The notes under the pieces: generated by a model
What the model was told of the DNA's origin: nothing
Seen by the model: the letters and a program-made list of their open reading frames with translations, nothing else
Databases searched by the model: none
Shown: piece by piece, positions 5,285-22,154 of the stretch
Layout of the letters: every line of letters begins with the position of its first letter
Numbering within the stretch: the first letter of the stretch is position 1
Program-made: the position numbers and the translations under genes
Origin: Lachnospiraceae bacterium
GTDB taxonomy: Bacteria > Bacillota > Clostridia > Lachnospirales > Lachnospiraceae
DNA: 43,767 bases
Assembly: GCA_017627275.1 (NCBI GenBank)
Contig: JAGAHC010000045.1
Coordinates: 1-43,767 of the forward strand
Direction of reading: 5' to 3'

Positions 5285-6445
5285 ATGGATAAGCAGATGG
5301 ACACTGAAAAGAAAAAACCGGATCTGCTGGATTACAGACAGCAGATCGACGTCATCGACAAGGGCCTGACGAAGCTCCTGATGGAGAGACTGGCGGTGGT
5401 TGAAAACATTGCTGACTTCAAGATCGAGAACAATAAGCAGGTGCTGGATGCGGAGCGCGAAGCGCAGAAGCTGACAGACCTGCAGGCAAGCGTGGAGACG
5501 ACCTTTGAAAAAGAGGCCCTGCGGGAACTGTTTTCGCAGATCATGGCAATCAGCAGAAAAAGGCAGTACCGGATCCTTGAAGAAAAGGGGACCAAATATC
5601 ACCAGGCGTTCATCGAGGTGGACGCGCTGCGCGTGGAGAGCGGCCGCATCGTGTACCAGGGGACCGAAGGGTCTTATTCGGAAATGGCGATGCACAGCTA
5701 TTTCGGCAAGGATATCGATGCCTTTGCGGTAAACACTTTTGAAGACGCGATGCGGATCATTGAAGAGGGAAGCGCCGACTATGCGGTCCTGCCGATCGAG
5801 AATTCGACGGCCGGCTTTGTCAGCGAAAACTACGATCTGCTCTCCAGATTTGAAAACTATATCGTGGGGGACGTTGTGCTTCCCATCAAACACGCGCTGA
5901 TGGCGGTGGAAGGTGCGACGCTTTCGGACATCCGAAAGGTCTATGCCCATCCGCAGGCCTTCATGCAGACGGAGCGCTTCCTGAATAAGCATCCGGAATG
6001 GGATCTGATCAGCATGAAGAACAACGCCTACGGGGCCAGAAAGGTGGCCGCGGAAAAAGACATCACCCTGGCAGCAATCGCGGGAGAGGGTGCGGCCGAG
6101 CGCTACGGCTTGGACATTCTGGAAAGAGAGATCAACCAGGACGCGAAAAACTCGACCCGGTTCATCATTGTGACGAATCGTAAGATCTTCCTGAAAGATG
6201 CGAAGATCATCAGTCTTTGCATGGAAGCGACCCATGAGAGCGGATCGCTCTACCGGCTTTTGTCCCATATCATTTACAACGGGCTCAATATGACCAAGAT
6301 CGAATCCAGACCGATCGAAGAGCGGAATTTTGAATACCGTTTCTTTATTGATTTTGAAGGGAACCTGAATGATCCGGCTGTCCGCAACGCGCTGCGCGGC
6401 ATGCGGGAGGAAGCAAGAAGCCTGAAGATACTGGGGAACTACTGA
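5285..6445 (+). CDS. pheA: Bifunctional chorismate mutase / prephenate dehydratase (P-protein)
   Basis: Converts chorismate to prephenate and prephenate to phenylpyruvate in phenylalanine synthesis. The protein has 386 residues in three domains. An AroQ-type chorismate mutase occupies about 14-100 (LDYRQQIDVIDKGLTKLLMER). Prephenate dehydratase is about 118-290 (YQGTEGSYSEMA, PIENSTAGFV, NSTRFIIV). A C-terminal ACT domain covers about 300-386, with KIESRP forming the phenylalanine feedback site. Two starts are possible. ATG 5285 overlaps the AAGGA ribosome site; ATG 5297 (MDTEKKK) is placed 12 nt from it, so translation may begin at either. It lies 16 nt after prfA and 20 nt before the DUF815 gene, so all are probably one transcript. 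Confidence 0.96.
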   Translation: MDKQMDTEKKKPDLLDYRQQIDVIDKGLTKLLMERLAVVENIADFKIENNKQVLDAEREAQKLTDLQASVETTFEKEALRELFSQIMAISRKRQYRILEEKGTKYHQAFIEVDALRVESGRIVYQGTEGSYSEMAMHSYFGKDIDAFAVNTFEDAMRIIEEGSADYAVLPIENSTAGFVSENYDLLSRFENYIVGDVVLPIKHALMAVEGATLSDIRKVYAHPQAFMQTERFLNKHPEWDLISMKNNAYGARKVAAEKDITLAAIAGEGAAERYGLDILEREINQDAKNSTRFIIVTNRKIFLKDAKIISLCMEATHESGSLYRLLSHIIYNGLNMTKIESRPIEERNFEYRFFIDFEGNLNDPAVRNALRGMREEARSLKILGNY

Positions 6446-10368: not shown

Positions 10369-10510
10369 AGGAACCACCATCCCTGAGGAAACTGGTCCCG
10401 GCGATATATATAGTTCCGTTTCGCGGACGCTTTCGCTCGGTTGTGCTTTCGCTGCGTTACATAAGACGACAAAAGGGTGTAGAGGAGAAGACAGCGACTC
10501 ATAAGGAAGG
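10369..10510 (+). repeat. Intergenic repeat element, copy A (inverted partner at 20348-20479)
   Basis: Starts immediately after the ATPase stop. Its first 50 bases (AGGAACCACCAT...) match the reverse complement of 20430-20479 at about 48 of 50 positions. The next ~90 bases are diverged but keep shared blocks: CGTTAC, TAAGACGAC, AAAAGGGTGTAGAGG and CATAAGGAAG. Both copies begin at the stop codon of a gene pointing toward them. The retained blocks with divergent stretches between them suggest a structured RNA or terminator-like element rather than a recent duplication. I do not recognise the family. Confidence 0.75.
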
Positions 10511-10513
10511 ATA

Positions 10514-10559
10514 GAAAAAACCTTGTACAACCAGCGTGGCGAAGGTCACGCCGGTTGTG
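10514..10559 (-). terminator. Rho-independent terminator of the recombinase remnant
   Basis: Read on the minus strand: ACAACCGGCGTG, an 8-nt loop and CACGCTGGTTGT (12-bp stem, one mismatch, 10528-10559), then a T-rich tract (TTTTTT, 10515-10520). The recombinase stop codon lies in the loop. Confidence 0.8.
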
Positions 10560-11895
10560 CTTTGCTTGTGGGAAGCTCCGGCTTTTGAAGAGGTATGCGT
10601 ATCCTTCCCACATAAGTAAAGAACACTTCGATGGTAACGTGCTTTCGTCCGTCGATCCGTTCGGGATTGTGGATCACGATCCTGTCGATTAGTTCGTTGA
10701 CCGTGGCTGCGTCAAGCTCTTGCAGTTCGGAATACCGCACCGCAAGATTTAGAAAGCGTTCCACGTCCACCGCCTGCTTTGCGTCATCCTCGATCTCCCG
10801 TTCCAGCACAGAGGCAAGCGTCTTGATCTCTTTTTGCTCTGACTCATATTGAGCAGACAGCTTTTGAAACCGTTCGTCGCTCAGCGTGCCGAACACCGAA
10901 TCCTCATAAAGACGCTGGATGATCCTGTCCAACTCCTCCATGCGCTTCTGTGCGCCTGAAAGCGCCCTTCGTTTCTGTGCAAGCTCCGCTTTTCGGCTTG
11001 CCTCGTCCTGCGCCAGCATATCGTGTATGAAATCGTCCCGATACGCCCGCACATAGGTCAGCGTCCGCTGCACGCATTCCAGTACCCGCTTGTACAGCGT
11101 GACTTCGCGGATAAAATGAATCTGGCATGAGCCCGTATTGCTCTTGTAGTTGGAGCAGACAAAGTGATCCTGCGTGTCGTCCTTGTAGGTATTGCAGGTG
11201 CAGAAATAGAGCTTTGCTCCGCAATCCGCACACCGTACCAGCCCGGAGAACATGCAGGTATTTCCCGTCTTGGTGGGTCTGCGTTTGTTTTTGCGAAGCT
11301 CCTGTGCCCGTTCCCACTGTCCGCGCTCGATGATCGGCGGCTGCGTTCCCTCGAATACCCGTTGATTTTCCTTTGGATTCTCCGTTCGCTTTTTGAACTT
11401 CAAGGACTTGGTATAGGTCTTGAAATTCACAGTACAGCCCAAATACTCCGGTCGTTCCAGTATTTTTACTACTGCATTGCCGTTCCACTGATACAGGTTG
11501 TCCGGCATGGATAAGCCCTTTTGCTTTGCATTGTAGGCGGTCACGGTCAATACCCGCTCACGCGTCAATGCCTTTGCGATCTGCATAGGGCCTTTTCCCT
11601 CGATACAGAGATCAAAGATATGCCGCACCACCTTTGCTGCTTCTTCGTCTACGATCCATTTCTTTTTGTCCTGCGGGTCCTTGATATACCCATAGGGAGG
11701 ATTGCTGGCGAGGTGTTCGCCCGCTTCTCCCCGCATCTTGACAACGGCGCGTATCTTTTTGCTTGTGTCCTTTGCAAAATAGTCGTTGAATACATTCTTG
11801 AACACCGCAAAATCGTTCTCGCCTCTTGCGCTGTCCACATCGTCATTTACGGCGATAAAGCGGACGTCATACGCTGGGAAAATGAAATCCTGCAA
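10546..11895 (-). pseudogene. Large serine recombinase, N-terminal catalytic part missing
   Basis: A reading frame of 449 codons. It enters the resolvase domain midway (DVRFIAVNDDVDSA), then has KDTSKKIRAVVK, SNPPYGY and the recombinase domain. A zinc beta-ribbon is near residues 218-255 (CADCGAK...C...C), followed by a coiled coil of about 300-370 and a C-terminal tail. The TnpX/Tn916-Tn5397-like serine recombinases of Clostridia are about 520-560 residues. The first ~110, carrying the catalytic serine (Y-RxS motif), are absent. Upstream minus-strand sequence beyond about 11886 does not encode them in any frame I could read. It therefore cannot catalyse integration or excision. It probably marks one end of a decayed mobile element whose other end was replaced by the defence genes. 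Confidence 0.88.
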
Positions 11896-12044
11896 AGGAT
11901 GCTTTTATATCTTCTTGCGCGGGATAGTGTATCCACAGAAATGCTTCCTTTTGCTATCCGCTGGAGATATTTGCCGATTTTGAACGAAGGAAATAAAAAG
12001 TCTCTATAAATAACCAAAGGGCAGTGGAATTTTTCACATATTCG

Positions 12045-12066
12045 TGATATCATAAATATCGATATT
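12045..12066. promoter_or_regulatory. Tandem palindromes upstream of the defence operon regulator
   Basis: The 203-bp stretch 11896-12098 has no gene I can support. It contains TGATATCA (12045-12052) and the 12-bp palindrome AATATCGATATT (12055-12066), 33 nt before the HTH gene. They are plausible operator half-sites for that regulator. No convincing -35/-10 pair with 17-bp spacing was found, so the promoter is not placed. Confidence 0.4.
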
Positions 12067-12098
12067 AGAGATAATCGTATGGCGTAAGGAGGCACGAA

Positions 12099-12311
12099 AT
12101 GGCTGTTACATATAAGAAGCTATTCCATATGCTGATTGACAGGAATATGACTCCGGCCCAACTTCAACAGGAGGCCGGATACAGCGCAAACATATCCACA
12201 CGTCTGCGCCGAGACTCGTATATTTCACTTGAATCTGTAGAGAAGATTTGCCGGGTTCTGGGCTGCAAAGTGGACGATATCGTGGATTTCATTCCTGATA
12301 AGGAAAAATAA
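12099..12311 (+). CDS. Small XRE-type helix-turn-helix regulator
   Basis: Protein of 70 residues consisting almost entirely of a Cro/CI-like HTH. The elements are MTPAQLQQEAGYSANISTRL (helices 2-3, about 17-36), SLESVEKICRVLGCKVDDIV near 45-64, then a charged tail. Such single-domain proteins (YozG-like) usually control the operon they head. It precedes a nuclease and a restriction-modification system, so a controller-protein role that times nuclease against methylase expression is reasonable but inferred. Clear ribosome site AAGGAGG 6 nt before ATG. The stop is 2 nt before the palindrome at 12314. Confidence 0.85.
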   Translation: MAVTYKKLFHMLIDRNMTPAQLQQEAGYSANISTRLRRDSYISLESVEKICRVLGCKVDDIVDFIPDKEK

Positions 12312-12313
12312 AA

Positions 12314-12332
12314 GTGTCAGCATTGCTGACAC
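12314..12332. repeat. Perfect palindrome between the HTH and yhcG genes
   Basis: GTGTCAGC-ATT-GCTGACAC, an 8-bp perfect inverted repeat. The 23 bases starting here recur inside the yhcG coding region at 12632-12654 with two changes (21 of 23 identical). It may act as an RNA hairpin between the HTH stop and the yhcG ribosome site, or as a protein-binding site. Confidence 0.7.
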
Positions 12333-12355
12333 AATTCAGAAAAGAGGTTTTCTTA

Positions 12356-13363
12356 ATGAACGAACTTGATATTACTTTTGCTGAGATAACGCAGATAATT
12401 GGAGAAGCTCGAGACAACGCTTATCGTAAGGTTAACGAGGAATTGATCCTCATGTATCAGCGTGTAGGCCGGTTTCTATCTGAAAAATCGAAAGAAGCAA
12501 ATTATGGAGACGGATATATCGATTCTCTTGCCGACTACATTCAAAAACAGTTCCCCGGCATTAAAGGTTTCAACCGCCGCGGACTCTATCGTATGAGGCA
12601 GTTTTATGAGACTTATGTCGGGAACGAAAAAGTGTCATCACTGCTGACACAATTAAGCTGGACAAACCATCTTCTCATAATGTCCGGCAGCAAGAGCGAT
12701 GAAGAGCGAGAATTCTATATGCGCCTCGCCGTTAAGGAAAGATATAGTTCTCGCCAGCTTGAGCGGCAGATGGACAGCGGCTATTATGAGCGGTATATGC
12801 TCTCCAAAAGCAAGCTGCTGCCTGAACCGCTGCATTCAGAGCAAAATCCGTTCCTTGATCAATATGTGGTGGAATTTCTCGACCTGCCGGACACCTTCCA
12901 CGAGAATGATTTCCGAAAAGCACTGGTTAAGGGAATGCGTGATTTTATTCTTGAATTAGGAAAAGACTTCACATTTGTTGGCGAAGAATACCCGATTCAG
13001 GTTGGCGGCGAGGATTATCGGATTGATTTACTGTTCTTCCATCGCAGTCTGCGCTGCCTTGTGGCAATAGAACTGAAAGTCGGGAAATTTAAGCCGGAAT
13101 ATGTTTCCAAATTGGATTTTTATCTTGAAGGGCTGGACAGACAGATTAGAAAGACGGATGAGAATCCGAGCGTCGGTCTGCTTTTTTGCGCATCCAAGAA
13201 CGATGAGGTGGTTGAATATGCCATGAGCCGGACGCTTTCGCCCATGATGGTGGCGCAATATCAGCTACAACTGCCAGATAAGAACATCCTGCGGAAGAAA
13301 CTGCAGGAATTGGCAAATTTGTCTGAAATCGAAGAAACTACAGGAGGTAGCGATAATGCCTAA
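12356..13363 (+). CDS. YhcG/DUF1016-family PD-(D/E)XK nuclease
   Basis: Protein of 335 residues. The N-terminal DUF1016 helical domain is about 1-150, with signatures YGDGYIDSLADYIQKQFPGIKGFNRRGLYRM in its middle and LSWTNHL near 100. A C-terminal nuclease fold follows, with the active-site pattern YRIDLLFF...VAIELKVG around residues 224-245 (Asp, then Glu-x-Lys). Family members are found beside restriction-modification systems and are presumed DNA nucleases; the biochemical target is not settled. The start at 12356 fits AGAGGT eight bases upstream. An in-frame GTG at 12314 lies within the palindrome. Its last 8 nt overlap the methylase gene, so it is translationally coupled to the Type III system and probably works with it. 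Confidence 0.88.
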   Translation: MNELDITFAEITQIIGEARDNAYRKVNEELILMYQRVGRFLSEKSKEANYGDGYIDSLADYIQKQFPGIKGFNRRGLYRMRQFYETYVGNEKVSSLLTQLSWTNHLLIMSGSKSDEEREFYMRLAVKERYSSRQLERQMDSGYYERYMLSKSKLLPEPLHSEQNPFLDQYVVEFLDLPDTFHENDFRKALVKGMRDFILELGKDFTFVGEEYPIQVGGEDYRIDLLFFHRSLRCLVAIELKVGKFKPEYVSKLDFYLEGLDRQIRKTDENPSVGLLFCASKNDEVVEYAMSRTLSPMMVAQYQLQLPDKNILRKKLQELANLSEIEETTGGSDNA

Positions 13364-15155
13364 CATATCACAGATAAAACGTCAGCGGATGCTCGAATTT
13401 CTGCAAACGCTGCGTGAGGAGCATAAGGACGATGACAGCGTCTTGATTGCCCTCGGTGAGATTGAGAGCGAATTGAACGCAAAAAAATACGGCCTCGTGT
13501 GGGAACAGCACGAAGAGGCCGTTGATGTGCAGATGCGTACCCACATCCCCGTGTTCACGGAGGATGCGGATCGTGAGATTAACGCTGTCCCCGGCGGCGC
13601 ATATAATTTCCTTCTGGAGGGCGATAATCTACATAGTCTCCGTTTGCTCGACAAAACGCACCGGGGCCGGATCGATTTGATTTATATTGATCCACCATAC
13701 AACACCGGCGGTAAGGATTTTGTTTATAATGATGCATTCGTTGATAAAACCGACACATTCGCTCATTCCAAATGGCTGTCTTTTATGTCTGAGCGACTCA
13801 GAATTGCCAGATTGCTTCTTTCGGATAAAGGGTCGATTTTTATCTCCATTGATGACAACGAACAGGCCCCTCTGAAAATGCTATGCGATGAAATCTTTGG
13901 AGAGGAATGCTTTGTCGCAGATATAGCATGGCAACGAGCGTATTCACCGAGGAACGATTCTAAAGGCATCAGCAATGAAAAAGAGCACATCCTCGTTTAT
14001 AGTCGCCTCGAAGGATGGTCCCCTAAGAAACTGCCCCGAACGGAAAAAATGAATTCCAAGTATAAGAATCCGGACAACGATGTTGCGCTGTGGCGAACAA
14101 GTGATGCTTTTGCACCAAGTGCAGCAACGCACCAAGGCATGGTTTATGCTATCCAGCATCCATTTACGGGAAAAATGATCTATCCGTATAACGGAGCCTG
14201 CTGGCCGCTCCGCCAAAGCGATATGCTCGCAGCAATGCAGGAATGGGGCGAATACGAATTAAAGGATCTTGATGATGCAGCCGAAAGAGCTGCGGTTTGC
14301 GGGATACCTACAGAAGATGTTCGTGAAGGCGTTATGGGAATAGTTCTAGTGAAGCCTATTGAAGAAGCACGTGTATACGCTCAGGAAGTTTACGATAGAG
14401 GGCGTTGGCCTCGCTTCTTCTTTACCAACAAGGGCAAGGGAGGTATTGCAAGAAAAACATATCTCGATAATACTGATGGTCGTGTTGTAACTAATTTATG
14501 GCCGTTTGAGGAGACTGGCCATACAGACGAAGCAAAGAAGGAGATCAAGGCTATTTTCGATAATCAGAAGGTTTTTGATACTCCAAAGCCTATCCGGTTA
14601 CTTGAACGAATAATCCACATTGCATCGGATGACGACAGCAGTATTCTGGATTTCTTTGCTGGTAGTGGCACGACAGGCCATGCAGTTATGCGATATAACG
14701 CATCGCATGAAGGCAGCCATCGTCGTTTCATATTATGCACAAACAACGAGGGCGGCATCTGTGAAGACGTGACCTATAAGCGGGTTCTCAATGCAGTGAA
14801 TGGATATGGAAGGGAACCGGGAATTCTTACAAATCTAAAATACTACCGCACCGATTTTGTGTCCAAAGATGAGGAATACCTCTCGGATGCTCTTATGGAG
14901 CATATTGCAGAAATGATTCAGCTGGAACACGGTGTTAAACTGGACGGCCAGAATTACATCATGGTACTGGATGATGACGAGGCTGATGCGCTTGCGGCCC
15001 ATTGGAGCGATTATCCGAATGTGAAAGCCCTGTATGTCTCCAAAAACGTGCTGTTCACCACGAAGCAAAATACGCTCTTCCGGGATGTGGAGATTTATAT
15101 CATCCCAGACTATTACTTCAATTTTGAACTGAGGGAGGTGGGCGAAACATGGTAA
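13356..15155 (+). CDS. Type III restriction-modification methyltransferase (Mod)
   Basis: DNA N6-adenine methyltransferase of 599 residues. The catalytic motif IV DPPYNTGG is near residue 112, and SAM-binding motif I FFAGSGTTGH near 431, in that order, which defines the beta class typical of Type III Mod. Between them lies a variable region of about 300 residues that would hold target recognition. Mod recognises the site, methylates one strand and also guides the Res subunit. Its start overlaps the nuclease gene by 8 nt and its end overlaps res by 7 nt. The recognition sequence cannot be read from the protein. Confidence 0.94.
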   Translation: MPNISQIKRQRMLEFLQTLREEHKDDDSVLIALGEIESELNAKKYGLVWEQHEEAVDVQMRTHIPVFTEDADREINAVPGGAYNFLLEGDNLHSLRLLDKTHRGRIDLIYIDPPYNTGGKDFVYNDAFVDKTDTFAHSKWLSFMSERLRIARLLLSDKGSIFISIDDNEQAPLKMLCDEIFGEECFVADIAWQRAYSPRNDSKGISNEKEHILVYSRLEGWSPKKLPRTEKMNSKYKNPDNDVALWRTSDAFAPSAATHQGMVYAIQHPFTGKMIYPYNGACWPLRQSDMLAAMQEWGEYELKDLDDAAERAAVCGIPTEDVREGVMGIVLVKPIEEARVYAQEVYDRGRWPRFFFTNKGKGGIARKTYLDNTDGRVVTNLWPFEETGHTDEAKKEIKAIFDNQKVFDTPKPIRLLERIIHIASDDDSSILDFFAGSGTTGHAVMRYNASHEGSHRRFILCTNNEGGICEDVTYKRVLNAVNGYGREPGILTNLKYYRTDFVSKDEEYLSDALMEHIAEMIQLEHGVKLDGQNYIMVLDDDEADALAAHWSDYPNVKALYVSKNVLFTTKQNTLFRDVEIYIIPDYYFNFELREVGETW

Positions 15156-17368
15156 CGGGCCTTACACTCAACCTGTTTGATTTTCAGGAAAAAGCGGTCA
15201 TGCAGCTTTTGGATCTGACCACGGACAGCTGTTGCAAGCAGACCATCGTGGTAAAATCGCCTACCGGCTCCGGCAAGACAATTATATTGATCGGCTTTGT
15301 GGACGAATACTTGAACAAGGTCAATTCAAACACGGCGGTCGTCTGGCTCTGCCCCGGTAAGGGCGATCTGGAAGAACAGAGCCGTCAGAAAATGATGAAG
15401 GTCGCTCCGCACCGGACCACGCAAAACCTGTTTGATGCACTCCGGAACGGATTCCCGGCAGAAAGCACTACTTTCATTAACTGGGAGCTTGTTACGAAAA
15501 AGGGCAATACCTCCATCAAAGACAGCGAACGCAAAAATCTGTATGACCGCATTGCCGAAGCGCACCGCAGCAGCATGGATTTCATTGTCATTATCGATGA
15601 GGAGCATTCCAACAACACGGCAAAAGCCAAAGATATCATCGATCATTTCTCCGCCAAGAATATCATTCGTGTAAGCGCAACGGCTGTGGAAAACAAGCGT
15701 TACGAATTCTATGAAATTGATGAACTGGACGTTATTGACGAGGGGCTGATCACAAAGGCCCTGTATGTCAATGAGGGCGTCGAGGACAATGTAGAAATTA
15801 CTGACGATTACGATTACCTTCTCGATCTGGCCGATGCCAAACGCAAGGCCATCGCCGCCCGGTATCAGGAAGTGTTGCCGGAGGACAAGGTCATCCGTCC
15901 GCTCGTGCTGATTCAGTTCCCAAATGGTCAGCCGGAAACAATTCGTGCCGTTGAACGTAAGTTGGAGAGCATGGGTTATACCTACGACAACGGTATGGTC
16001 AGCATCTGGATGAGCGAAGACAAGCGTGATCTGCCGGAAAATCTCACAGATAATGATGCACAACCTGTTTTTCTGCTTATGAAACAGGCCATCAGTACCG
16101 GCTGGGATTGCCCACGGGCCAGAATCCTCGTGAAGCTTCGTGAGGGGATGAGCGAACAGTTCGAGATTCAGACCATCGGTCGTATCCGCCGTATGCCGGA
16201 GGCCAAGCACTACGATGATGATCTTCTTGATTTCTGCTACGTATACACCTTCGACGAAAAGTACAAGGCCGGTCTGCTGGCAACGATGGACAAGGCTTAT
16301 GAAACACGGCGGCTGTTCCTGAAGCCGAAATGCAAAACCTTCACGCTGGAGAAGGAATACCGAGACCTTGATTTTGACGGCCTCGGTGAGCGTGAAGTGC
16401 TGAATCGCATTTACGCTGCTCTGGTAGAAAAGTACCACCTTACCTCCGACAAACAGCGTAATAGGATGATCTTCGCCGGAAATGGATATGTGATCGGTGA
16501 CGAAATCCTCGGTCAGGCACTGCATGGTGTTTTCGTCCGCACGGATATGGTAGCCGAGGCCACGTCCTATTACGGGACCCGTAAGCGTGTGGATACGCAT
16601 AAACACGGTATGCAGCTTCTGCACAGTACAGATGCGATCAAAACGGCAATCGGCCTCTCTACTGGCAAGGTCAAAACCATTCTGGAGCGTCTGTTCCGTA
16701 AAGGCGGAAATCCAAAGAAGAAGCTGCTGGCTCTAAATACCGCAGAATTTTATGCCTTCGTCATCAACAACGAGCATTTACTGCGTGATGAATTCCGTAA
16801 AATCACTTCCGGTATGTCACAGCAGCTGGGGCTGACGCTCGAACCGAAAAAAGGAGTCTTCCACATCCCGGAGCAGGATTTCTTCAAGTATGATCCGGGC
16901 GTGAAAGAAGAAATCGAGTATCTTTCCAATGCCTATCAGGAATACACCTCCGGATATGCTACTTCGCTCGTTCGCAGTATGTCAGAGCAGCTGTTCGAGC
17001 AGTATTGCGAGGGCCGGGACGATATCGAATGGGTCTATAAAAATGGCGATACCGGCCAGCAGTATTTCTCCATCGTCTATCTGGATGCTCTCCGCCATCA
17101 GTGGCTGTTCTATGCTGATTACATCGTTATGAAAAAGGACGGGACAGTCTGGGTGATTGAGACCAAGGGCGGCGAATCCAAAGGCAAGGACAAAAATATC
17201 GATCCGCAGATTGAAAATAAGTTCAATGCGTTCAAAGCCTACGCCGCCAAACACGGCCTCCACTGGGGCTTCGTCCGGGATAAGGATAATCGGCTGCATA
17301 TCAATAATACGGAATTCGCTATCGATATGGCTGATGATCACTGGAAACCGATAAGTCAGGTTTTCTAA
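15149..17368 (+). CDS. Type III restriction enzyme Res subunit (helicase-nuclease)
   Basis: ATP-dependent translocase and endonuclease of 739 residues. Walker A SPTGSGKT is near 37-44, motif II is the DEEH variant (VIIDEEHSNN near 148), motif III RVSAT near 175, and the motif VI region QTIGRIRRMPEA near 341. The C-terminal nuclease signature is a PD-(D/E)XK core, DYIVMKKDG...VIETKG, near 655-675. It is shorter than the roughly 900-1000 residues of classical Res proteins such as EcoP15I but has every expected motif. With Mod it cuts DNA carrying two unmethylated sites. Codons overlap with mod; thsA follows after 29 nt. Confidence 0.93.
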   Translation: MVTGLTLNLFDFQEKAVMQLLDLTTDSCCKQTIVVKSPTGSGKTIILIGFVDEYLNKVNSNTAVVWLCPGKGDLEEQSRQKMMKVAPHRTTQNLFDALRNGFPAESTTFINWELVTKKGNTSIKDSERKNLYDRIAEAHRSSMDFIVIIDEEHSNNTAKAKDIIDHFSAKNIIRVSATAVENKRYEFYEIDELDVIDEGLITKALYVNEGVEDNVEITDDYDYLLDLADAKRKAIAARYQEVLPEDKVIRPLVLIQFPNGQPETIRAVERKLESMGYTYDNGMVSIWMSEDKRDLPENLTDNDAQPVFLLMKQAISTGWDCPRARILVKLREGMSEQFEIQTIGRIRRMPEAKHYDDDLLDFCYVYTFDEKYKAGLLATMDKAYETRRLFLKPKCKTFTLEKEYRDLDFDGLGEREVLNRIYAALVEKYHLTSDKQRNRMIFAGNGYVIGDEILGQALHGVFVRTDMVAEATSYYGTRKRVDTHKHGMQLLHSTDAIKTAIGLSTGKVKTILERLFRKGGNPKKKLLALNTAEFYAFVINNEHLLRDEFRKITSGMSQQLGLTLEPKKGVFHIPEQDFFKYDPGVKEEIEYLSNAYQEYTSGYATSLVRSMSEQLFEQYCEGRDDIEWVYKNGDTGQQYFSIVYLDALRHQWLFYADYIVMKKDGTVWVIETKGGESKGKDKNIDPQIENKFNAFKAYAAKHGLHWGFVRDKDNRLHINNTEFAIDMADDHWKPISQVF

Positions 17369-17397
17369 CGATACATAAGAGAAATGAGGTGATCATT

Positions 17398-18822
17398 TTG
17401 GCAGTAAAGAAAGAAGAATTAATACGAAATTATGCGAAAGCTATACGCGAGGGTAATGCCGCTATTTTTGGTGGCGCCGGGCTATCACGGCCTTCTGGCT
17501 TTGTAGATTGGAAGGGTTTGCTTCGACCGTTGGCTTCCGATATTGGTTTAGATGTTGATAAAGAAACAGACATGCTTTCTGTTGCTCAGTTCTATAAAAA
17601 CCAAAGGAGAACGCGATCTGGCATTAACCAGGCAATCCTTGAGGCTTTTTCGGTGGATGCTCAGATAAATGAAAACATCAGGATTATCTCTCGATTACCA
17701 ATATTCACATATTGGACAACGAACTATGATGAATTATTGGAAAAGGGCATTCGAGAAGCAAACCGAAATCCTGATGTCAAATCGGAATCGGACCAACTCT
17801 CAAACATGAAGCGGGATAGAGATGCCATCGTATATAAAATGCATGGAGATGTTAATCACCCTGCAAATGCGGTATTAACTAAAGAGGACTATGAGCTTTA
17901 TGAGCATCACCGCCCTCTGTTCCGCACAGCATTAAAAGGCGATTTAGTTTCAAAAGTATTCCTATTTATCGGGTTTAGCTTTGAAGACCCTAATTTGGAA
18001 TATATATTGGGTCAAATTCACTCTCTTCTTGGAGAGAATGTCCCAAATCATTATTGCTTCTTTAAGCGAGTTCAGGAAAACGAATTCAGCGATCCGGCAG
18101 AATACGGGTATAGCAAAGCAAGACAAGACATGCAGGAAGAAAATCTGCGAAATTATGGTATTCAAACGGTTTTTGTAGATTCTTATGATGAGATAACGGA
18201 TATTCTCCGTGAGATTGAAAGAGTATCAAAACTGTATAATGTATTTATCTCCGGAAGTGCCTACGAGTACACTGCTCCATGGAATGAACAACAGGCGGAA
18301 GCGTTGGCAAAAAAGCTTGCCGGTGCTCTGGTACACGAGGAATGCCGCATAACATCCGGATTTGGACTTGGTTTGGGGTCTGCTATAATAAATGGTGCAC
18401 TTGATATTATTTACAATGAAAAGTATAGACATATCGATGAGCATTTATGCCTAAGACCATTCCCACAAAACATTCCTGATCCCGATAAAAGGGCAAAGCG
18501 CTGGAAAGAGTATCGTGAAAGCATTATTGATGAAACAGGCATTTCGGTTTTCTTGTTTGGAAATAAATATGATGCCGCTACCGAAAGTACAATTGTAGCT
18601 GATGGCTGTATTCAGGAATTTGAAATTACCAAAGCAAAAGGAAATATTATAATTCCTGTTGGTAGTACAGGATATGCAGCAAAAGCCATATGTGATGAAG
18701 TCAAGCGCAACATATCTGATTATTCATACCTTTCTGATGCTATTGATAAATTGGAAACAGAAACCGATATTGAAAACATAATTTCAATTGTCTTGGCGAT
18801 TGTGAAAAAGCAGCAAAACTAA
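17398..18822 (+). CDS. thsA: Thoeris effector ThsA (SIR2 NADase with SLOG sensor domain)
   Basis: Protein of 474 residues with the ThsA layout. An N-terminal SIR2 domain (about 1-275) starts with GNAAIFGGAGLS (19-30) for NAD binding, with catalytic N109 (TTNYDE) and H149 (KMHGD). These correspond to N112 and H152 of Bacillus cereus ThsA. A C-terminal SLOG domain (about 285-474, VFISGSAYEY, SGFGLGLGSAI) binds the cyclic ADP-ribose isomer made by ThsB and activates NAD+ destruction, killing the infected cell. The start is taken as TTG 17398, which has AGGTGATC six bases upstream; GTG 17389 lies within that site. The reading frame is intact. Clearly richer in A+T than the chromosomal genes around the island, which supports horizontal origin. 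Confidence 0.95.
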   Translation: MAVKKEELIRNYAKAIREGNAAIFGGAGLSRPSGFVDWKGLLRPLASDIGLDVDKETDMLSVAQFYKNQRRTRSGINQAILEAFSVDAQINENIRIISRLPIFTYWTTNYDELLEKGIREANRNPDVKSESDQLSNMKRDRDAIVYKMHGDVNHPANAVLTKEDYELYEHHRPLFRTALKGDLVSKVFLFIGFSFEDPNLEYILGQIHSLLGENVPNHYCFFKRVQENEFSDPAEYGYSKARQDMQEENLRNYGIQTVFVDSYDEITDILREIERVSKLYNVFISGSAYEYTAPWNEQQAEALAKKLAGALVHEECRITSGFGLGLGSAIINGALDIIYNEKYRHIDEHLCLRPFPQNIPDPDKRAKRWKEYRESIIDETGISVFLFGNKYDAATESTIVADGCIQEFEITKAKGNIIIPVGSTGYAAKAICDEVKRNISDYSYLSDAIDKLETETDIENIISIVLAIVKKQQN

Positions 18823-18835
18823 GGAGGAAAGAATA

Positions 18836-19333
18836 ATGGCAAAACGACAAGTGTTTTTCAGTTTTGAATATGGTAAGGACGCATGGAGAGCCTCTCAAGT
18901 TAGGAATATGGGTAAAGTCAGTGATTCATCGACTTTTTCGGACAATGATTGGGAAGAAGTGAAAAACAAAAGTGACAGAGAGATTAAGGCTTGGATTGAT
19001 GACCAAATGGCCAAGAGGTCATGTATTGTCGTTTTAATTGGCAAAACCACTTCTACACGCAAATGGGTAAAATACGAAATTGAAAAGGCATATGAGCTTA
19101 ACAAGGGAATTGTAGGGATTTATATCCACAAGCTAAAAGATGAAGAAGGAAATCAAACAGACAAGGGCGCAAATCCGTTTTATTCTGTATATACCAATGA
19201 TGGCGAAAGGCTGTCTAAGTATGTAACTTGCTTTGATTCGAATTTTCAGACAAGCAAATACGTTTATGATGATATTTCAGACAACATTGAAGAGTTAATA
19301 GAGGATGCTTTAAATAACAAAGCGCCACAGTAA
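18836..19333 (+). CDS. thsB: Thoeris TIR-like protein ThsB, first copy
   Basis: Protein of 165 residues with a single TIR-like (DUF1863) domain. The first strand is RQVFFSFEYGKD, the middle strand CIVVLIGKTT is near 63-72, and KWVKYEIEKA near 76-85 contains the likely catalytic glutamate E81 (E85 in B. cereus ThsB). On sensing phage it would convert NAD+ into the signal that activates ThsA. Strong ribosome site AAGGAGGAAAG, 13 nt after thsA. It is only distantly similar to the next gene product, so the pair are separate sensors rather than a recent duplication. Confidence 0.93.
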   Translation: MAKRQVFFSFEYGKDAWRASQVRNMGKVSDSSTFSDNDWEEVKNKSDREIKAWIDDQMAKRSCIVVLIGKTTSTRKWVKYEIEKAYELNKGIVGIYIHKLKDEEGNQTDKGANPFYSVYTNDGERLSKYVTCFDSNFQTSKYVYDDISDNIEELIEDALNNKAPQ

Positions 19334-19343
19334 GGAATCTACC

Positions 19344-19937
19344 ATGGCAAAGAATGTTTTTATTTCATTCCGTTTTAGTGATGGAAACCGATATAAGGAA
19401 TACTTATCAGGTCTCTTTGATAAGTATAGTGATACTATTGATTATTCTGAGGATGTGGATCGTTCTCGAATGTCAGATGTTACAATAAAGCAATACTTAT
19501 ATGGAAAGCTCCGCAGATCCAGCGTTACTATCGTTCTATTAACGCCATCAGCGGTTAATCACAAAAAGAACTGGAGGGGAGACTACGACGATTGGATGTA
19601 CGATGAAATCAGATACTCCCTCGAAAGTAGAGAAGGAAATCGTACAAATGGTCTTGTGGCAGTATATACACCTGAGGCTGCGAACTTGCTTGTTAATGTT
19701 CAATCTTCTGGAACAGTATCCGTTAATACTGTTGACAATCTGTTCAGAAAAAACATGATGAATGTGAAACCTCAGTATAAGAAAAATCCAAATCCCGGCA
19801 TATTCGATAGGGATTACGATTCATATTGTTCGCTGATTGAATGGGATGAGTTTATATATAATATCGGTAGATATATCGATATTGCTTCACAAAAGCGGGA
19901 CGATATTTACAAATTCGATATTAAAAAAAGACTCTAA
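19344..19937 (+). CDS. thsB: Thoeris TIR-like protein ThsB, second copy
   Basis: Protein of 197 residues starting NVFISFRFSDGNRYKEYL. A VTIVLLTPSA strand lies near 61-70, and the putative catalytic glutamate E88 is in DDWMYDEIRYSL. The C-terminal part is longer than in the first copy and ends in a lysine-rich tail. Thoeris loci commonly carry more than one ThsB, each responding to different phages. Ten bases separate it from the first copy; the ribosome site is weak (AAGGAATCT), which may mean lower expression. Last gene of the defence run, with no obvious terminator directly after it. Confidence 0.92.
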   Translation: MAKNVFISFRFSDGNRYKEYLSGLFDKYSDTIDYSEDVDRSRMSDVTIKQYLYGKLRRSSVTIVLLTPSAVNHKKNWRGDYDDWMYDEIRYSLESREGNRTNGLVAVYTPEAANLLVNVQSSGTVSVNTVDNLFRKNMMNVKPQYKKNPNPGIFDRDYDSYCSLIEWDEFIYNIGRYIDIASQKRDDIYKFDIKKRL

Positions 19938-20270
19938 CATGCGCCTGCTCAAGTAAAATGCATCTGGCTTCATAAATCTAATATTGGTAAATACAGTATA
20001 ATACTGTGATTGAATAGCACACGTTTATGCGGTATGTGGAACTGTCAGGCTTTTGATATCAAACGATGTAACATCTGTTGGTTAATCATCGATTGGTGAC
20101 CGGCAAGCAATGCAAACTTGTACAAGGTTGCGGTTTTTGCGAGTCGGCCCGCTGGCCTGTCCTCGCAAAAATGCTTGTTGGTGACATTCCCCCAAACCCA
20201 TGAGATCGCCACCTTCGGTGACGGCTGCGCATTCTGCAAATGCTGAAAATCAAATAGGCGCAAAGAAAAA
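19938..20270. other. Non-coding right side of the defence island with palindromes
   Basis: The 540-bp gap between thsB and the PHP-HAD gene contains no gene I can support. It holds the palindrome ACAGTA-TAA-TACTGT (19993-20007), the symmetric segment CTTGTACAAGG (20117-20127), the large hairpin listed separately, a convergent terminator and repeat copy B. A minus-strand frame of 78 codons at 20045-20281 has no ribosome site or recognisable domain and runs straight through the hairpin. A decayed mobile-element end or transfer region is possible. Confidence 0.5.
20134..20171. repeat. Large hairpin with 10-bp perfect stem
   Basis: TTTTTGCGAG (20134-20143) pairs with CTCGCAAAAA (20162-20171). 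The 18-nt loop contains GGCC-CGCT-GGCC, a possible inner 4-bp stem. On either strand a T run ends the stem, but the size and symmetry also suit a protein-bound site such as an oriT nick region or recombinase site of the decayed element. Confidence 0.7.
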
Positions 20271-20273
20271 ACG

Positions 20274-20310
20274 CTACACAAATGGATAAATCATCTGTGT
20301 AGAGTTTTCT
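20274..20310. terminator. Probable bidirectional terminator
   Basis: CTACACA (20274-20280) with TGTGTAG (20296-20302), extended by imperfect pairing AATGGA/TCATC. It is flanked by GAAAAAACG on the left (T run on the minus strand) and AGTTTTCT on the right. Confidence 0.6.
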
Positions 20311-20347
20311 GTTTCCCGTCTACCCGGCAGAAGCCATTTTTTGTTGA

Positions 20348-20479
20348 TACTTCCTTATGGCTCTCTACCTGAGCCTCTACACCCTTTTTACGTCGTCTAA
20401 GTAACGGCGAGCACACGACGCCGCTGTACGAAACTATATATATCGCCGGGACCAGTTTCCTCAGGAATGGTGGTTCCTT
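20348..20479 (-). repeat. Intergenic repeat element, copy B (inverted partner of 10369-10510)
   Basis: Minus-strand copy that begins at the stop codon of the PHP-HAD gene (TAAGGAACCACCATTCC...). The first 50 bases are near identical to copy A (two differences). The following part keeps CGTTAC, TAGACGAC, AAAAAGGGTGTAGAGG and CATAAGGAAG in the same order. A local stem is possible in the diverged centre (GCGGCG with CGCCGT). The two copies face each other across about 9.8 kb and so bracket the recombinase remnant and defence genes. Confidence 0.75.
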
Positions 20480-22154
20480 AGAGATGGCTGAGGATGATAT
20501 CCGCCAGCCCGTCGTGGTCGTTGTCTTCTTCGGTGATGATGTCGGCCACATCCTTCAGGGACGGGAAGAGTTCCAGTCCGTTCTTCATCACGATGCCGGT
20601 GCCGGCGGCTTTGATCATGTAGCTGTCGTTTTCGGCATCGCCGGCAGCCAGGGTGTTGGCGGGATCGATCCCCAAGTGGCGCGCAAGCCACAGCATGCCC
20701 TTGCCCTTGTCGACGCGGGCGGAGACGATCTCCATATAGTGGTCGCTCGAGAATACGCAGAGAAGTTTTCCTGCGTATTTTTTCATGATCTTTTCGCGGA
20801 GCGGCATCATCTTTTCGCGTCCCTCCGGAGAGATGACGAGGATCTTCGGCGGTCTGATGGGAAGCGCCTTGTTAAACTGGTCGCCGATGAATTCGATGGG
20901 AAGCGGGACCCATCTGCGGTATTCCACGTTTTCTTCCGTTTCCTTTTCGGCGATGATGCCGTCACGGGAATACGCATGAAGGTAGAGTCCTTCCTCCTTG
21001 GCCATGGCAATGATGTCGGCGCAGACGTCGACGGGCATGCCCTCATAGGAGAGCATGATCTCGTTATCACAGTCATAGATCTCGGCGCCGTCCGATCCGA
21101 TCAGGAACAGGTTCTTATACGGGAGCTGTTCTCTGCGGATGCGGAAGATGTCGGAGAGGGGTCTGCCGGAAGAGAGGACGAAGATGTTGCCGCTCTCTGT
21201 CCAGCGCAGGATCGCCTGATGGGTCTTCTCGCTGATGGTCTTCCAGGAAGTGCTGATGGTCCCGTCGTAATCGGAGAAGAACGCCTTGGTCGAATCGCTG
21301 ATGGAAAAATGGTGGTGCTTCAGCTTCAGCAGCACGGATTCGTCGACATGGAGATTGCCGCGGCCGGTCCCGAGTTCGATGTCGGGCTTATTGGATCCGT
21401 GGAAGTCGGAAGCGCCGCTCGGGATCAGGTCGTATTCCTCCGCGAGACGCGCCACATAGGCGGTTTCTTCTTCGGAGTGCGTGGAGTAAAACACCTCGAT
21501 CCCCTCGAGGCCCTGCTTTTTGAGACGCACGATCAGGGCACGCAGTTCCTCGTCGGAGAAACCGTATTTTAAGGGGTGGGCAAAGATCGCCATGCCGTGG
21601 GCATTGCGGATGCGGCGGATCCCCTCCTGCGGGGTGATGCGGTCCCAGGGTTCATAGCAGGGGCCGTCTTCGCCGATGTAATTGTCGAAGGCTTCCTTGA
21701 TCGTCTTCACATATCCCTTGTGGACGAGAAACCGGCCGAAGTGTCCTCTGGTAAGGATCGGCGCGCGTCCGCCCTCGGGGGTGGAAAAGGCGATCAGTTC
21801 CTCGTAGTCGACAGGCATCCCGAACTGCGTGAGGCGCTTGCACATGCGCATGGCGCGCTCGGTACGGTCGCGGACGATGCTGTCGTTCAGACGGATAAAC
21901 TCCTTGTCGTTGTAGTCTACGAAGAGACCGACGATATGGAGATCGATTCCCTTGTATTCTGTGGAGAGCTCCACGCCCGGGATGAGTTCCATAGGGGTGT
22001 CAAAGGCCTGGTCGACTGCCTCCGGGATCCCGCTCGTCGTATCGTGATCGGTGATGGCAAGTGCCGTTAGGTTTTTCTGAAGGCCGATCTCCACGACTTC
22101 GGTAGGAGAGAGCGTGCCGTCGGAATGAAAGGTATGAGAATGCAGATCGATCAT
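20478..22154 (-). CDS. Fusion of PHP-domain phosphoesterase and HAD-IIB (Cof-type) phosphatase
   Basis: Protein of 558 residues. Residues 1-280 form a PHP metal-dependent phosphoesterase: MIDLHSHTFHSDGTLSP, ITDHDTTSG, and GASDFHGSN near 245. The domain resembles the YciV/TrpH family that removes phosphate from 3',5'-nucleoside bisphosphates or short RNA ends. Residues about 290-558 form a HAD-IIB phosphatase: FFSDYDGTI (nucleophile Asp), LSSGRP, and GDAENDSYM near the end. Each half is usually a separate protein. The join is in one open frame with no sign of error. ATG 22154 is preceded by GGGAGG; upstream in-frame codons would overlap the ABC-F gene. Lies 10 nt after that gene and is probably co-transcribed. 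Confidence 0.9.
   Translation of the reverse strand: MIDLHSHTFHSDGTLSPTEVVEIGLQKNLTALAITDHDTTSGIPEAVDQAFDTPMELIPGVELSTEYKGIDLHIVGLFVDYNDKEFIRLNDSIVRDRTERAMRMCKRLTQFGMPVDYEELIAFSTPEGGRAPILTRGHFGRFLVHKGYVKTIKEAFDNYIGEDGPCYEPWDRITPQEGIRRIRNAHGMAIFAHPLKYGFSDEELRALIVRLKKQGLEGIEVFYSTHSEEETAYVARLAEEYDLIPSGASDFHGSNKPDIELGTGRGNLHVDESVLLKLKHHHFSISDSTKAFFSDYDGTISTSWKTISEKTHQAILRWTESGNIFVLSSGRPLSDIFRIRREQLPYKNLFLIGSDGAEIYDCDNEIMLSYEGMPVDVCADIIAMAKEEGLYLHAYSRDGIIAEKETEENVEYRRWVPLPIEFIGDQFNKALPIRPPKILVISPEGREKMMPLREKIMKKYAGKLLCVFSSDHYMEIVSARVDKGKGMLWLARHLGIDPANTLAAGDAENDSYMIKAAGTGIVMKNGLELFPSLKDVADIITEEDNDHDGLADIILSHL

Follow-up and report, generated by a model that had tools for sequence, protein, structure and literature searches.

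A row of seven genes on a contig of a Lachnospiraceae bacterium is probably best understood as an autoregulated Type III restriction-modification (RM) operon of the order HTH-mod-res, which would carry yhcG as cargo in a slot ahead of mod and a self-sufficient Thoeris system behind res. The window, i.e. the whole stretch of 43,767 nt that was analysed, is one entire contig of an assembly of 116 contigs and 1.74 Mb. Open reading frame calls place the seven genes in an operon-like row on the + strand (12099-19937). The row and its left neighbour comprise the following features:

10546-11895, - strand: left neighbour of the cassette, a serine recombinase missing the catalytic N-terminal portion (Recombinase, Zn_ribbon, DUF4368)
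12099-12311, + strand: HTH_26 (Cro/C1-type) regulator, 70 aa (PF13443, 1.1e-16; HTH of the relative L012 94% identical)
12356-13363, + strand: yhcG, DUF1016 N domain and PD-(D/E)XK nuclease (PF17761, 1.7e-40; PF06250, 5.8e-53)
13356-15155, + strand: mod, Type III N6-adenine methyltransferase (PADLOC MTase_III, 5e-135; Type III Mod 6k0w, 3.2e-49)
13906-14820, + strand: stretch of mod that cannot be aligned to L012 DNA, where the match stops and then resumes; taken as the target-recognition region
15149-17368, + strand: res, Type III helicase-nuclease, 739 aa, motifs intact (ResIII, 8.4e-15)
17389-18822, + strand: thsA, SIR2 and SLOG (STALD) (ThsA 6lhx, 1.6e-119)
18836-19333, + strand: thsB1, TIR (8wcf, 7.6e-35; ThsB 6lhy, 1.7e-19)
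19344-19937, + strand: thsB2, divergent TIR (PADLOC ThsB, 3.1e-75; TIR1 9vyl, 9.9e-09)

A preliminary description of this DNA had claimed seven same-strand genes with short gaps and two overlaps, a regulator at the front of an operon-like layout, and a complete Thoeris system downstream. The open reading frame calls bear out the arrangement, with overlaps of 8 nt (yhcG/mod) and 7 nt (mod/res) and gaps of 20 nt (res/thsA), 13 nt (thsA/thsB1) and 10 nt (thsB1/thsB2). The HTH/yhcG gap is 2 or 44 nt, with yhcG starting at 12314 (GTG) or at 12356 (ATG, AGAGG ahead) and ending at 13363. The front position of the regulator and the operon-like layout are likewise supported. The Pfam families in row order are HTH_26, DUF1016_N with YhcG_C, N6_N4_Mtase, ResIII, SIR2_2 with STALD, and ThsB_TIR in both ThsB proteins. 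PADLOC identified PDC-S02 (yhcG, 1e-123), MTase_III, REase_III (6.4e-15), ThsA (1.7e-187) and two ThsB, the first with 3.3e-75.

A consensus scan listed no promoter-like or terminator-like site on the + strand at 14417-17980, including the res-thsA gap; its totals were not above those of shuffles (22 vs. 18.1 ± 4.1 promoter-like and 10 vs. 7.5 ± 3.3 terminator-like sites). A search of 11800-20600 against Rfam gave no match. One transcript across the row is plausible. The operon-like spacing along the whole row, the res-thsA gap without a listed promoter or terminator, and a shared front regulator with a dyad would also fit one integrated, layered defence unit of seven genes, which would be selected as a whole under one controller and would cut DNA first, depleting NAD+ only upon failure of the cutting. 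A second alternative is an ordinary defence island of independent systems that are adjacent by chance, with separate promoters located in the gene ahead of each and tight gaps reflecting no more than compact genomes. Weak promoter-like matches within genes are consistent with such an island.

To characterise the core, the best 80 of 186 Res relatives were surveyed, mostly on MAG contigs, with at least 1 kb visible downstream of res in 72 loci and at least 5 kb in 55. Mod has N6_N4 methyltransferase motifs and matches a Type III profile. Res has helicase motifs and a C-terminal PD-(D/E)XK nuclease, with residues K43, D150, E151, R348, D657, E671 and K673 conserved; its profile similarity to characterised Res proteins is weak. 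The mod-res pair, the motifs of both proteins and the Res nuclease residues are as in Type III RM systems of the EcoP15I class. Unlike these, Res is short, at 739 aa compared with 970, and resembles EcoP15I Res only weakly (9.1e-05); the row also has an HTH controller and a cargo slot. Whether YhcG replaces or assists the short Res nuclease had been raised as a question; replacement is unlikely because the window and 82 of the 83 relatives have D657, E671 and K673, the exception (L058) being cut by a contig end. Mod would methylate host sites, and Res would cut unmodified invading DNA.

An overlap of 7 nt between mod and res is shared by 49 of the 81 relatives that have a mod gene, and 16 more have a 4-nt overlap, which is more than chance. 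Where relatives have an upstream HTH gene, it directly precedes mod in 16 of 26. In the closest relative among the best 80 of 186, L012 (Res 97% identical), the HTH gene lies directly before mod, and its DNA corresponds to window positions 11973-12302, 13355-13906 and 14820-17368, with no match after res. Judged by this conservation, HTH-mod-res is an inherited unit.

Two features lie ahead of the HTH gene:

12034-12047, no strand: dyad TCAC-N6-GTGA, probable HTH operator, sole copy in the 43.8 kb window
12048-12053, + strand: probable -10 TATCAT, from an alignment of upstream regions

The TGA before TATCAT coincides with part of the dyad's right half, giving an extended -10, and the aligned upstream regions of relatives have GTGATATAAT or a sequence near it at this position. 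The dyad was found at most 150 nt upstream of the HTH gene in eight of nine relatives with an HTH at least 48% identical, although the eight represent fewer independent cases because the upstream regions of L008 and L025 are near-identical. L035 has a similar HTH yet lacks the dyad. It was absent upstream of all 20 testable HTH genes with less than 45% identity. In 1.373 Mb of loci, TCACN6GTGA occurs at 16 sites, nine of which are those upstream of HTH genes. Because the dyad overlaps the extended -10 both here and in these eight relatives, as expected for an autoregulated RM controller, the HTH protein probably autoregulates the operon via this putative operator. By binding at 12034-12047 it would limit transcription of itself and of everything downstream, and the operon would be expressed when the protein is scarce or titrated. 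C proteins of Type II RM systems are similar in that a small HTH gene precedes the RM genes and a dyad lies in its own promoter; family and site differ, the putative regulator here being of HTH_26.

In place of yhcG, L012 has 18 nt, i.e. the window carries an insertion relative to L012. Ten of the 26 relatives with an upstream HTH have another gene between HTH and mod: Bro-N (L035, L082), UvrD-PDDEXK (L056, L083), or proteins of 255 aa (L062, L091), about 95 aa (L040, L058), 297 aa (L024) and 211 aa (L050). An 8-nt stop/start overlap with mod is formed by HTH in L012, L013 and L025, by Bro-N in L035 and L082, and by yhcG here, and would couple yhcG to mod. These comparisons indicate that yhcG is a cargo gene seated between HTH and mod. 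The defence island would explain neither the dyad linked to HTH nor the clean insertion of yhcG nor the shared 8-nt overlap, and we regard it as unlikely for the row as a whole.

The product has the DUF1016_N and YhcG_C domains of its family; a search against PDB sequences gave no match. It would be an extra nuclease, structure-directed judging by its family. Among the 80 loci of Res relatives, tblastn (1e-3) found yhcG once, as a decayed fragment just before mod (L034). YhcG was also seen in two unrelated genomes: in L135 it immediately precedes a Mod-like gene from a different family, and in L307 it is flanked by a methyltransferase and a helicase; the 942-aa gene of L135 had no PDB match and is called helicase/Res by position alone. 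In five of nine annotated plasmid records examined (L219, L220, L221, L222, L224), YhcG has an overlapping, cargo-like placement in Type I RM operons. The placement here is similar, but in a Type III operon and between regulator and mod.

The Thoeris system is complete, as had been claimed: two ThsB TIR proteins adjoin thsA, and ThsA has SIR2 and SLOG domains. N112, H152, R371 and K388 of 6lhx, which we take to be catalytic and pocket residues, are identical in ThsA (positions counted on the alignment). It is established for Thoeris that a cyclic ADP-ribose signal from ThsB leads to NAD+ depletion by ThsA. Upon infection, the ThsB proteins here would make this signal and ThsA would switch to NAD+ depletion. 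Unlike in Thoeris as known, the set lies 20 nt behind res.

The G+C content of the Thoeris genes is lower (0.36-0.40 vs. 0.45-0.50), and neither thsA nor thsB was found beside res in the 80 loci (best 80 of 186; tblastn, 1e-3), for which reasons Thoeris looks like a separate addition to the row. Conversely, no Mod/Res match lies beside ThsA in six other genomes. A tight co-directional gene follows res in 35 of 73 loci, compared with 362 of 752 background pairs of neighbouring genes in the loci of Res relatives (p = 1.0), where such spacing is commonplace. PADLOC-positive genes make up 13 of 32 genes after res and 4 of 20 distal genes (p = 0.14). Neither spacing nor defence density being above background, Thoeris as a conserved cargo of the slot after res was rejected, and the defence-island explanation may well be right for this part of the row.

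The same observations, i.e. the G+C break, the background-level spacing, the six genomes, and the 80 loci that lack Thoeris and have yhcG once in decayed form, count against the integrated unit, as does PDC-M46A/B after res in L012. The preliminary description had proposed a single layered unit, but the gene set is not kept together in relatives and the exact row was found only once. The evidence does not support a layered unit that co-evolved, and we consider such a unit highly improbable. A survey finding the juxtaposition unique to this genome had been named beforehand as counting against that proposal. Among the best 80 of 186 Res relatives the whole juxtaposition is indeed unique, while L135 and L307 weaken a strict uniqueness of the yhcG-mod pairing. 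Under the favoured reading of an RM operon with cargo, Thoeris would be a second, self-sufficient system that landed behind res, is probably reached by read-through from the same promoter, and would act independently of the RM layer.

Other relatives have AbiJ (L013, L015), HamA (L040), GajA (L076), bSEFIR (L039, L063) or TIR (L083) after res. One PADLOC-positive distal gene, in L040, sits in a chain behind Hachiman.

Foreign defence genes embedded in RM operons are documented for Type I systems. The RptR-controlled Type I RM island of enteropathogenic E. coli, with embedded DarTG2, resembles the row in that a small regulator comes first, a palindromic site lies over the -10, and the RM operon contains a foreign defence gene, whose embedding site varies between genomes (PMC12255303). 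Unlike here, the RM system is of Type I and the cargo sits between hsdS and hsdR, TCACN6GTGA has no relation to RptR and its TAGCTA site, and "type III" is absent from the part of that text available (PMC12255303). The present row suggests that a Type III family has the same embedding habit at a defined place, behind the regulator, and the probable operator, readable from the sequence, allows the control of a Type III system to be tested directly.

The truncated recombinase corresponds to residues 130-569 in its alignment with a relative of 574 aa; its remaining N-terminal part was not found in the window. A target-site duplication around the cassette was rejected, as 11701-12100 and 19901-20600 share no word of at least 11 nt on either strand. 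Relatives offered no usable empty site (flanking protein at most 50% identical), and no near matches to 10500-20600 were found in plasmids and phages.

Two palindromes accompany yhcG:

12314-12332, no strand: leader palindrome GTGTCAGCA-T-TGCTGACAC, 9-bp perfect arms
12632-12650, no strand: intragenic palindrome GTGTCATCACTGCTGACAC, 8/9 pairs, before LSW codons

The intragenic palindrome is a near-copy of the leader palindrome, and similar palindromes precede yhcG in L131 and L216. In its own genome, the palindrome pattern has just two exact matches, one of which is the leader palindrome. A dispersed REP-like repeat was rejected, as the exact matches, two in this genome and two in G361, all lie in yhcG; a single further match with two mismatches lies elsewhere in each of the genomes, and a reversed-pattern control in G361 also gave one match. 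An mRNA hairpin was also rejected, as G.U mismatches (19) barely exceed A.C mismatches (13) across homologs; leaving out positions 1 and 13, which were picked after inspection, the values are 4 and 9. The leader RNA folds well (z -4.55). The lack of strand bias in the mismatches favours, without proving, a role at the DNA rather than the RNA level, and the palindrome has the behaviour of a putative DNA site that the yhcG gene keeps to itself.

Since 2005, YhcG has been described as a nuclease without an assigned role, with a nuclease domain resembling Holliday-junction resolvases (PMC1189080). We tentatively propose, at somewhat less than even confidence, that each DUF1016/YhcG gene carries a private recognition site in its own coding sequence: at one set codon position lies a palindrome whose arms reach as much as 15-16 bp, and many of the genes have a further copy, either in the leader or at another fixed offset. 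The arms would vary between clades, with the symmetry being kept. YhcG would recognise this site in its own gene as duplex dyad or extruded cruciform and limit its own expression, and the gene would take this regulation along to each new place of insertion, in the present case a Type III RM operon. If true, this would give YhcG, whose gene occurs in thousands of E. coli genomes, its first concrete candidate for a substrate or operator. In 43 of 57 DUF1016/YhcG homologs tested, the codon position of the intragenic palindrome is taken by a palindrome whose arms are clade-specific, and that of E. coli K-12 yhcG has 15 of 16 pairs.

The seven open reading frames, their spacings and their family names agree with the preliminary description, and the row is real and operon-like. 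For yhcG, the ATG at 12356 is the more likely start codon, because the alternative GTG at 12314 sits inside a palindrome in the leader.

12034–12047: TCAC-N6-GTGA dyad upstream of HTH
12099–12311, forward strand: HTH, HTH_26 Cro/C1-type regulator
12314–12332: yhcG leader palindrome
12314/12356–13363, forward strand: yhcG, DUF1016_N + YhcG_C nuclease gene
12632–12650: yhcG intragenic palindrome
13356–15155, forward strand: mod, Type III modification gene
15149–17368, forward strand: res, Type III restriction gene
17389–18822, forward strand: thsA, Thoeris
18836–19333, forward strand: thsB1, Thoeris
19344–19937, forward strand: thsB2, Thoeris

A scan of genome contigs used four aligned Res sequences as its query. 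The best 80 of 186 relatives (L012–L091) were analysed together with as much as 10 kb of flanking DNA per side, along with three further relatives (L008–L010) from whole genomes of the phylum. The combination of DUF1016, mod and res with thsA/thsB downstream, which had been read as one layered unit, did not recur: the loci of the best 80 of 186 contained no ThsA or ThsB by tblastn at 1e-3, and YhcG was matched in a single locus, as a broken fragment before mod (L034). In these 80 loci the visible DNA after res was at least 1 kb in 72, at least 5 kb in 55 and at least 9 kb in 46; at least 400 nt was visible before mod in 63 of the 78 loci with a forward-strand mod. Among the 81 relatives with mod, this gene and res overlap by 7 nt in 49 and by 4 nt in 16. 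Of 398 genomes of the phylum, Res was detected in 5, counting that of the window; one of the five (G156) has 85-residue pieces only. These two pieces (L006, L007) comprise the last 85 residues of Res alone, are 73–78% identical, and are remnants of the RM family of the window. Damaged mod genes also occur beside intact res, i.e. split by several kb (L068), reduced to the end (L072), or broken into three ORFs (L082).

The HTH gene belongs with mod-res. The closest Res relative, L012, has 97% identical Res and 94% identical HTH proteins, and its DNA aligns with window positions 11973–12302 (83%), 13355–13906 (78%) and 14820–17368 (92%). Between the first two blocks, 18 nt occupy the place of yhcG, and the homology stops at the res stop codon. 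An HTH gene lies upstream of mod in 26 relatives, with nothing between them in 16 and at least one other gene in 10. Pfam and PADLOC named Bro-N/PDC-S13 (L035, L082) and UvrD-PDDEXK (L056) in this slot; the remaining slot genes received no name. In loci with no detected HTH, the genes directly before mod include AbiTii (L044) and DUF2971/PDC-S31 (L031), among others. The same 8-nt overlap with the mod start is formed by the stop of HTH (L012, L013, L025), Bro-N (L035, L082) and YhcG. The best-supported reading of the row is HTH-mod-res with a cargo slot. A serine recombinase gene lacking the catalytic N-terminus (10546–11895) ends about 80 nt left of the start of L012 homology.

The TCAC-N6-GTGA dyad, which occurs once in the window, leads into a probable extended −10 (TATCAT, 12048–12053). 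Among the 9 relatives with an HTH at least 48% identical, 8 carry it no more than 150 nt upstream (L008, L012, L013, L019, L021, L025, L037 and L082, of which L008 and L025 have near-duplicate upstream regions; L035 lacks it). Where the HTH is less than 45% identical, none of the 20 testable genes has the dyad upstream. The 1.373 Mb of locus sequence holds 16 copies of it, 9 of which are those upstream of HTH in the window and its relatives. The dyad is the probable operator of HTH, and its overlap with the −10 suggests repression. A perfect 12-bp palindrome, AATATCGATATT (12055–12066), lies downstream of the −10 and ahead of the HTH start codon, and was not seen in the 13 other upstream regions compared.

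ThsA matches the solved ThsA 6lhx (1.6e-119), with identical residues at the N112, H152, R371 and K388 positions, and ThsB1 and ThsB2 match TIR proteins. The G+C content is 0.36–0.40 for thsA-thsB2, 0.45–0.50 for HTH-yhcG-mod-res and 0.52–0.57 for the flanking genes. ThsA relatives occur in 8 of the 398 genomes, that of the window among them; around ThsA in six of the others, no ORF matched Mod or Res of the window, L151 ending at a contig end. For 32 genes behind res, one per locus (chains left out include L008, L023, L025, L029, L053, L057, L062, L067 and L091), 13 were PADLOC-positive at 1e-5: PDC-M46A, AbiJ (2), HamA, GajA, bSEFIR (2), KAP/PDC-S20, TIR/PDC-S66, PDC-S57, KwaB (weak, 6.5e-07) and two OLD-like ATPases. 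The control, 20 of 25 drawn genes at least 4.5 kb away, gave 4 of 20 (Fisher p = 0.14). In 35 of 73 loci, res has a tightly spaced co-directional gene behind it, compared with 362 of 752 among other gene pairs (p = 1.0). The position after res is therefore unremarkable for a defence island, and the presence of Thoeris calls for no special account; Thoeris is a neighbour of HTH-mod-res that may share its transcript. In L021, L023, L025, L029 and L008, a recombinase-like gene pair begins close behind res, possibly a mobile element using that place.

YhcG has been predicted to be a PD-(D/E)XK nuclease near Holliday-junction resolvases, with an N-domain of a previously uncharacterised kind (PMC1189080), and deletion of yhcG is reported to be synthetic lethal with dnaB, dnaN and parE alleles (PMC2672614). 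Published work also describes RptR (PMC12255303) and prrC sitting within a Type I locus (PMC12707154). A YhcG relative is present in 15 of the 398 genomes, again counting that of the window. In G361, an 83% identical YhcG lies upstream of the DISARM-like genes DrmMII and DrmD; G182 has an HTH-YhcG pair, and in G180 YhcG is followed by a 68-aa ORF, a 975-aa Mod-like protein (6k0w, 1.3e-18) and a 942-aa protein without a PDB match. In nine plasmid records picked from the best matches, YhcG lies within Type I RM operons (5), adjoins a BPTD_3080-type restriction gene (1) or has no named partner (3). On Polaromonas plasmid pH1NP1 (L307) it stands between two RM-like genes, methyltransferase and DEAD helicase, with 4- and 1-nt overlaps. 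Neighbours this varied mark yhcG as a promiscuous cargo gene.

The strongest lead of the analysis is a palindrome in DUF1016/YhcG genes with clade-specific arms, a fixed codon position and a putative function. The available text of PMC1189080 does not mention palindromes, and among the 15 papers listed, of 186 matching a literature search on YhcG and intragenic palindromes, none names DUF1016 or YhcG; as far as these searches reach, the palindrome is unpublished. A 30-nt direct copy of the leader palindrome lies inside yhcG (12628–12657, 90% identical). L131 and L216 carry similar palindromes at equal distance before yhcG and at equal codons within it; because the leader copy in L216 lies out of frame, its conservation is not for the sake of protein sequence. 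The test used a single fixed centre, placed 12 nt upstream of the codon that opens the [LIV][STPA]W motif. Of the 113 YhcG-matching loci, 27 lacked the motif and 29 were duplicates, leaving 57 genes, which are kin, so that counts are non-independent events. At least 7 of 9 pairs formed in 43 of the 57 and all 9 in 18, with perfect arms of up to 15 bp, versus 139 and 7, respectively, of 60,279 other centres in the same genes. Synonymous codon resampling gave 5.35 expected pairs of 13 against 9.77 observed (p < 0.05 in 43 of 57 genes). The 43 palindrome-bearing genes have 29 different seven-base arm cores.

Eleven loci were fetched once the rule was fixed. Seven of the eight with the motif reach 8 of 9 pairs, and L304 fails with 3; the arms in L305 and L309 are those already seen in L222 and L241, leaving five new cases. 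Two lacking the motif have, as best palindrome of the gene, 15 of 16 pairs (E. coli K-12 yhcG, L300, centre near 6221) and 14 of 14 pairs (L308) at the corresponding peptide; in the third, L303, the reading frame is ambiguous. By the same best-of-gene picking, several of 22 distinct earlier motif-less homologs have a strong palindrome at that peptide (L249, L292, L235, L280), and some have none in the gene. In three more of the 22, L246, L260 and L264, the palindrome so picked has 10–11 of 11 pairs and lies at another, NRQLPTADL-like peptide, possibly a second class.

A further near-copy of the own palindrome (at most 5 mismatches in 23) occurs in the fetched DNA of 11 of 43 homologs, versus 0–0.1 per gene in shuffled controls. 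Each clade has its own fixed offset: about −318 (window, L131, L216), +180/183 (L218, L220, L221, L222) and −108/−111 (L239, L279 and, by its own palindrome, L248). Second copies differ from the arms of their own gene by 1–5 mismatches, from those of near relatives by 2–5 and from the rest by a median of 10–12. They fit near relatives as well as their own gene: the arms covary between clades, not within them. In K-12 yhcG, related palindromes also lie 39 nt upstream within the gene and 17 nt past the stop, and a 61-base probe spanning the palindrome of K-12 has matches in 3518 of 5426 E. coli genomes.
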